DNA of 48,066 nucleotides from Lentisphaerae bacterium GWF2_49_21 (GTDB lineage Bacteria; Verrucomicrobiota; Lentisphaeria; Victivallales; GWF2-50-93): assembly GCA_001804805.1 (NCBI GenBank), contig MHBH01000088.1:1-48066 (forward strand). Reading direction: 5' to 3'. Shown here piece by piece: positions 657-952 of this stretch (positions within the stretch are counted from its first letter, which is position 1; each line of letters begins with the position of its first letter). The notes under the pieces are model-generated. The model did not search any database, had not been told where the DNA came from, and was given only the letters and a program-made list of their open reading frames with translations. Both the position numbers and the translations under genes were made by a program.

Positions 657-667
657 GTATGAATTCC

Positions 668-952
668 TTTAGGGAACCTCTAAAAATTCACAATTGGCGC
701 GTTGCGGAAGATTTTTGAAAGCTCAAAAAGAATTTCCGACCGAGGCGTATCAGGGCGATACGCCGAAGAAGGAACATTCTTCTTTGAGCCAAAATGATCC
801 GCAACCCAAAGGGCAACAAGTTCTTATGGATTCTGACCTCGTCAAAACATTGCTCAAATACCGCAGATGGGTATTCTCGCAATATTTTTCCTTGCCATCT
901 CTCCATAATCTATTGTTGCGCGTCATTTGTCAATTTTTAAAGGTTCCCTTTA
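668..952. mobile_element. MITE-like non-autonomous insertion with 4 bp target duplication
   Basis: The left end (672 onward, GGGAACCTCTAAAAATTCAC) and the reverse complement of the right end (948 backward, GGGAACCTTTAAAAATTGAC) match at about 26 of 30 positions, giving terminal inverted repeats of about 30 bp. TTTA flanks both sides (668-671 and 949-952) and looks like a target-site duplication. The 277 bp interior carries no transposase. It has short open frames on both strands that resemble hypothetical ORFs I remember from similar elements elsewhere, so I do not call them genes. The parent insertion sequence family is not identified; the ends are loosely like some IS4/IS5-type ends. The element sits between two paralogous zinc-ribbon genes. 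Confidence 0.75.

Follow-up and report, generated by a model that had tools for sequence, protein, structure and literature searches.

The locus and the element

The stretch analysed here (the window) comprises 48,066 nucleotides of contig MHBH01000088.1 from Lentisphaerae bacterium GWF2_49_21, and its subject is a miniature inverted-repeat transposable element (MITE) lying between two paralogous zinc-ribbon genes (Table 1). The products of these genes are 48% identical to each other and carry paired CxxC motifs; when compared with the Pfam and NCBIfam collections, neither rose above the cut-off of any family. The left end of the element begins with GGGAACCTCTAAAAATTCACAATTGGCGCG at position 672, and an imperfect reverse complement of this sequence closes it at 948, the 30-bp terminal inverted repeats matching at 26 of 30 positions. 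A TTTA directly abuts the element on either side. The first-pass annotation, which had described a MITE of 277 bp with inverted repeats of about 30 bp and a TTTA on both sides, proved exact in coordinates and length.

When the window was scanned for paired 17-bp ends that lie 150–400 bp apart, agree at 15 or more of 17 positions and are bordered by 4-bp duplications, this element was the sole match; five first-order Markov randomisations of the window gave nothing. Open reading frames (ORFs) within the element do not exceed about 70 aa, and one ORF of 100 aa extends beyond its right end. Since 277 bp is too short to encode a transposase, the MITE is to be regarded as non-autonomous.

Table 1. 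Features of the interrupted zinc-ribbon locus, in window coordinates.
Feature	Position	Strand	Basis
Downstream zinc-ribbon gene, 69 aa	447..656	minus	
Ribosome-binding site AAAGGA of the downstream gene, kept at the insertion edge	665..670	minus	sequence; alignment with AAGGAA of congeners
First copy of the target-site duplication, TTTA (read as TAAA in the direction of the genes, where it forms the 5' part of AAAGGA before the downstream gene)	668..671		
MITE, 277 bp, with IS5-type ends GGGAACCTCTAAAAATT	672..948		
Left terminal inverted repeat, 30 bp	672..701	plus	end-repeat scan, pattern matches
Internal arm A, long hairpin, compensatory changes between copies	701..805		
Internal arm B, long hairpin, compensatory changes between copies	813..919		
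Promoter-like TTGACA-17-GATTAT within the right end, pointing to the downstream gene	905..933	minus	
Right terminal inverted repeat, 30 bp, matching the left one at 26 of 30 positions	919..948	minus	end-repeat scan, pattern matches
Target-site duplication, copy 2, TTTA	949..952		
Upstream paralogous zinc-ribbon gene, 68 aa	963..1169	minus	

Interruption of the zinc-ribbon gene pair

The two genes are separated by 306 bp, of which 25 bp remain once the element and one TTTA are subtracted, in agreement with the earlier estimate of about 25 bp. Alleles with an empty site, which had been proposed as a check on the insertion, are present in two other genomes of the genus. The genus was sampled by the window's own genome (G000) and three others: G001 is MHBI01 (Lentisphaerae bacterium GWF2_50_93), G002 is CAMCYE (labelled Victivallis vadensis), and G003 is apparently JANYBI (Lentisphaerae GL140_5). 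An orthologous tandem pair of zinc-ribbon genes without the MITE lies in G003:C624 and in G001:C1, and the bases flanking the element in the window align to both, the gap being about 40 nt there as against 25 nt in the computed empty window. The occurrence of the orthologous pair with an empty site in congeners indicates that the tandem pair is the ancestral state and the insertion the derived one. In more distant relatives a single open frame covers both zinc ribbons as a fusion (L233, L237), or the frames of the two overlap (L235), which supports the view of the pair as one functional unit. The conserved tandem order, the short gaps in relatives and these domain fusions together strongly suggest that the two genes once formed a single operon.

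Read in the direction of the genes, the MITE is followed by TAAA and then by GGAATTCATAC and the ATG. The TTTA at 668-671 thus reads TAAA on the minus strand and runs into GGAATTC, and the resulting AAAGGA at 670-665 precedes the ATG at 656 by 8 nt; this sequence aligns with the AAGGAA ribosome site of the two congeners. The downstream ribosome site is intact after the insertion, its 5' half being rebuilt from the duplicated TAAA, and the first-pass suggestion that the insertion adjoins this site, with the TTTA duplicate forming part of an AAAGG context, is borne out by the bases themselves. Expression of the downstream gene would now depend either on read-through of a 277-nt hairpin or on the promoter-like site that the element carries. 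The latter has the form TTGRCA-17-RATTAT in all 41 full copies of the MITE gathered, which is not evidence of promoter activity; the same stretch is held also by the end repeat and by base pairing, and promoter-like matches in the region are near chance (3 found, 1.6 expected).

Copies of the element in the genome and the genus

Seven further full-length copies, 276–309 bp long and 73–82% identical, are located at unrelated loci in the same genome, along with fragments. Among the 60 genomes searched, the four that represent the genus (G000 and its three congeners) all have the MITE, with many copies in each; the other 56, which belong to the family and order, yielded none. Exact AT-rich target duplications of 4 bp flank 22 of the 41 full copies and are, with complements pooled, TAAA (12), ATAA (7), TCAA (2) and TTAA (1); in the remaining copies the flanks are non-identical or truncated. 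Copies elsewhere devoid of inverted repeats or of a duplication had been named in advance as a finding that would speak against a MITE; the dispersed copies were found to carry target duplications of their own. The genes beside the copies are mostly unrelated from one copy to the next, the strongest matches being ORFs that overlap the element itself. Genes of about 490 aa seemed to recur near the copies, but they are unrelated to one another, and their apparent recurrence is an artefact of taking flanks of 1.5 kb.

Tiny elements of 45–56 bp containing little beyond the two ends, some of them with 4-bp duplications, were also observed (L011, L012, L120:6409-6464, L110:3966-4010); they look as if they were solo end pairs that are still mobile, or deletion relics. 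At other sites the element has met with reading frames. A 673-aa protein at L184:6155-8182 (G000:C36:34154-36200, minus strand) takes its ATG, in frame, and its first codons (MARKSKLW...) from a lone MITE end, GGGAACCTCTGAAAATTAGCATATGGCACGC; homologues from other genomes, where their N-terminal region is covered, align only from about residue 12, and most from residue 19-26, so the start of this gene looks transposon-derived. At L185:1182-2735 (G000:C40, minus strand) a lone end lies in frame at the 5' part of a long ORF, for which the ATG within the end (HMACKAILAALYIPM...) could serve as the start. At L002:3-1808 (minus strand) an open frame of 602 aa spans a whole MITE copy, with MTISLKGTSKNWHMARDRRLW... 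in its N-terminal part, and is possibly a MITE-gene fusion.

A candidate IS5-family partner

The search for an insertion sequence (IS) with the same ends, another check proposed at the outset, led to an intact IS5-family element of 1287 bp in the same genome (contig C73; L180 1490-2776), flanked by TTAA and situated near an exact copy of the MITE end sequence. It encodes a transposase of about 340 aa with no internal stops, which scores 288.7 bits against the NCBIfam IS5 model NF033581 (cut-off 140) and matches Pfam DDE_Tnp_1 and DUF772. The ends of this IS are GGGTTCCTCTAATAATT and GGGAACCTCTAAAAATT, the right one being identical to the MITE end at 17 of 17 bases. Decayed copies of the IS are present in G000:C46 and G001:C111. 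On these similarities the C73 IS is a likely source of the transposase for the MITE, although not of its interior.

From the locus, the empty sites, the dispersed copies and this IS, we consider it very probable that a non-autonomous MITE of the IS5 family was inserted into the gap of an ancestral two-gene zinc-ribbon operon. The starting point would have been a tandem pair with a short intergenic gap, presumably co-transcribed. An IS5-family transposase, for example that of the 1287-bp element, would then have acted in trans on the 17-bp end GGGAACCTCTAAAAATT, and the MITE would have entered the gap with duplication of the TTTA target, the duplicated TAAA restoring the 5' half of the downstream ribosome site, which was kept in this way.

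Several observations weigh against the part assigned to the C73 IS. Its left end differs from the MITE end at 3 of 17 positions (14/17 match), the similarity between the two elements ceases at about 17–20 terminal bases, and the 240-bp interior of the MITE has no source in the IS, which means that the MITE is not a simple internal deletion of it. The MITE ends are moreover conserved over 30 bp (SRCAWWTGGCGCG), beyond the match to the IS, and the true partner could therefore be a transposase not seen here. A transposase of a different family, since lost or residing elsewhere in the genus, is on balance a rather unlikely mover of the MITE. It would accommodate the 30-bp conservation, which the C73 IS does not share, and the fact that MITE-rich G002 and G003, both incomplete drafts, gave no match to the C73 transposase. 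It would also accommodate the finding that, in gammaproteobacterial bins (JAOUGF, CAKKRP; loci L078, L086, L116, L132, L144, L152 and others), unrelated MITEs of 141–160 bp are bounded by the same 17-bp ends, many of them beside 4-bp duplications rich in A and T; this end type must accordingly be widespread. What it leaves aside is the full 17/17 identity of one end, together with the same type of AT-rich 4-bp duplication, to an IS residing in the same genome.

Folding and co-variation of the arms

The minus-strand RNA of positions 640-980 has a predicted fold of -131.7 kcal/mol, far better than its shuffles (z -10.5), and the consensus fold of 26 copies consists of a terminal stem and the two long arms listed in Table 1. 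In these 26 copies, 28 of 89 consensus pairs have changed on both sides. A tree of 33 copies of 276-279 bp was used to count changes at 87 pairs predicted on both strands (the 309/310-bp copies, which align poorly, were left out); 47 paired double changes stand against 43 single breaks, which lead to G-U in 13 cases, to A-C in 14 and to another mismatch in 16. The average number of steps was 0.83 in paired columns and 3.1 in unpaired ones, a roughly fourfold difference. Three provisos apply to these counts: the columns counted also served to build the tree, the copies are related to one another, and the pairing is that of a predicted fold. Among pairs called on both strands, G-U and A-C occur equally often, in 11 types each and in 13 and 17 cells, respectively.

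Such a pattern could arise if the repeat were conserved for its RNA fold, as a structured non-coding RNA or an mRNA leader element, its mobility being secondary or past. The stability of the fold, the compensatory changes, the number of double changes relative to single breaks and the slow paired columns are all in keeping with this explanation, which we nevertheless hold to be improbable. When the strands are exchanged, G-U becomes A-C; since selection on the RNA of one strand should favour G-U, the equality of the two argues against such selection. A search of the element and its neighbours against Rfam gave weak matches only, none above the gathering thresholds; neither wobble tolerance on one strand nor a match to a known family was found. 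The exact duplications, the unrelated dispersed sites and the empty orthologous sites, furthermore, require mobility. Of the first-pass concern that conservation as a structured RNA would undermine the MITE, the form is thus present, as a full-length fold with co-variation, while strand specificity is absent and the evidence of mobility stands. Still less credible, to the point of being negligible, is an ancestral long gap from which relatives deleted the sequence, a course possible in principle for which no support was found, and against which stand relatives that have none of the sequence yet keep homologous flanks, as well as copies elsewhere with duplications of their own.

A constraint on both strands, or a correction of the arms at the DNA level, fits the modelled co-variation better than an RNA of one strand does. 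In its full 277 bp the element forms a palindrome with three arms, in which paired double changes are as common as the single-side changes that survive and G-U is not preferred. It is conceivable, and put forward tentatively, that these arms change in concert because they act as DNA hairpins rather than as RNA, either through mutual correction or under selection, with template switching during replication, cruciform repair, or a fold required for transposition as candidate routes that share the same tentative standing. If this were so, the family would offer a natural data set on which the correction of hairpin arms in bacteria could be measured.

Comparison with known systems

Judged by its ends and target duplication, the element represents a new MITE family of IS5 type, while the insertion itself is a well-documented event of an ordinary kind. 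The literature searched yielded neither a paper printing these end sequences nor a relevant one on MITEs in Lentisphaerae. An IS5-type MITE family in this group is documented here with empty sites, duplications and a candidate source of transposase, and the case illustrates how an insertion may split a gene pair while the ribosome site stays usable.

A direct precedent for MITEs in bacterial operons is Chunjie of Geobacter uraniireducens (Chen et al. 2008, as cited in PMC10969869), which, as far as that citation describes it, resembles the present family in its dispersed copies, variable length and conserved ends. It belongs to another organism and another family of copies, and the Lentisphaerae case has in addition congeners with empty sites and a candidate IS5-family partner. 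According to the same review, MITE transcripts typically form stable stem-loops. QMITE1 and QMITE2 of Coxiella burnetii (PMC5896051), the Correia elements and ERIC (PMC10969869) are likewise small, mobile, strongly folding and intergenic, and some of them alter nearby transcripts or reading frames, the QMITEs of Coxiella altering small RNAs (PMC5896051); by their names and descriptions they are separate families. Unlike the IS5-family insertion sequences (NF033581), the MITE has no transposase, and its interior does not derive from the C73 IS, but it has in common with that IS the 17-bp end GGGAACCTCTAAAAATT and the AT-rich 4-bp duplication.
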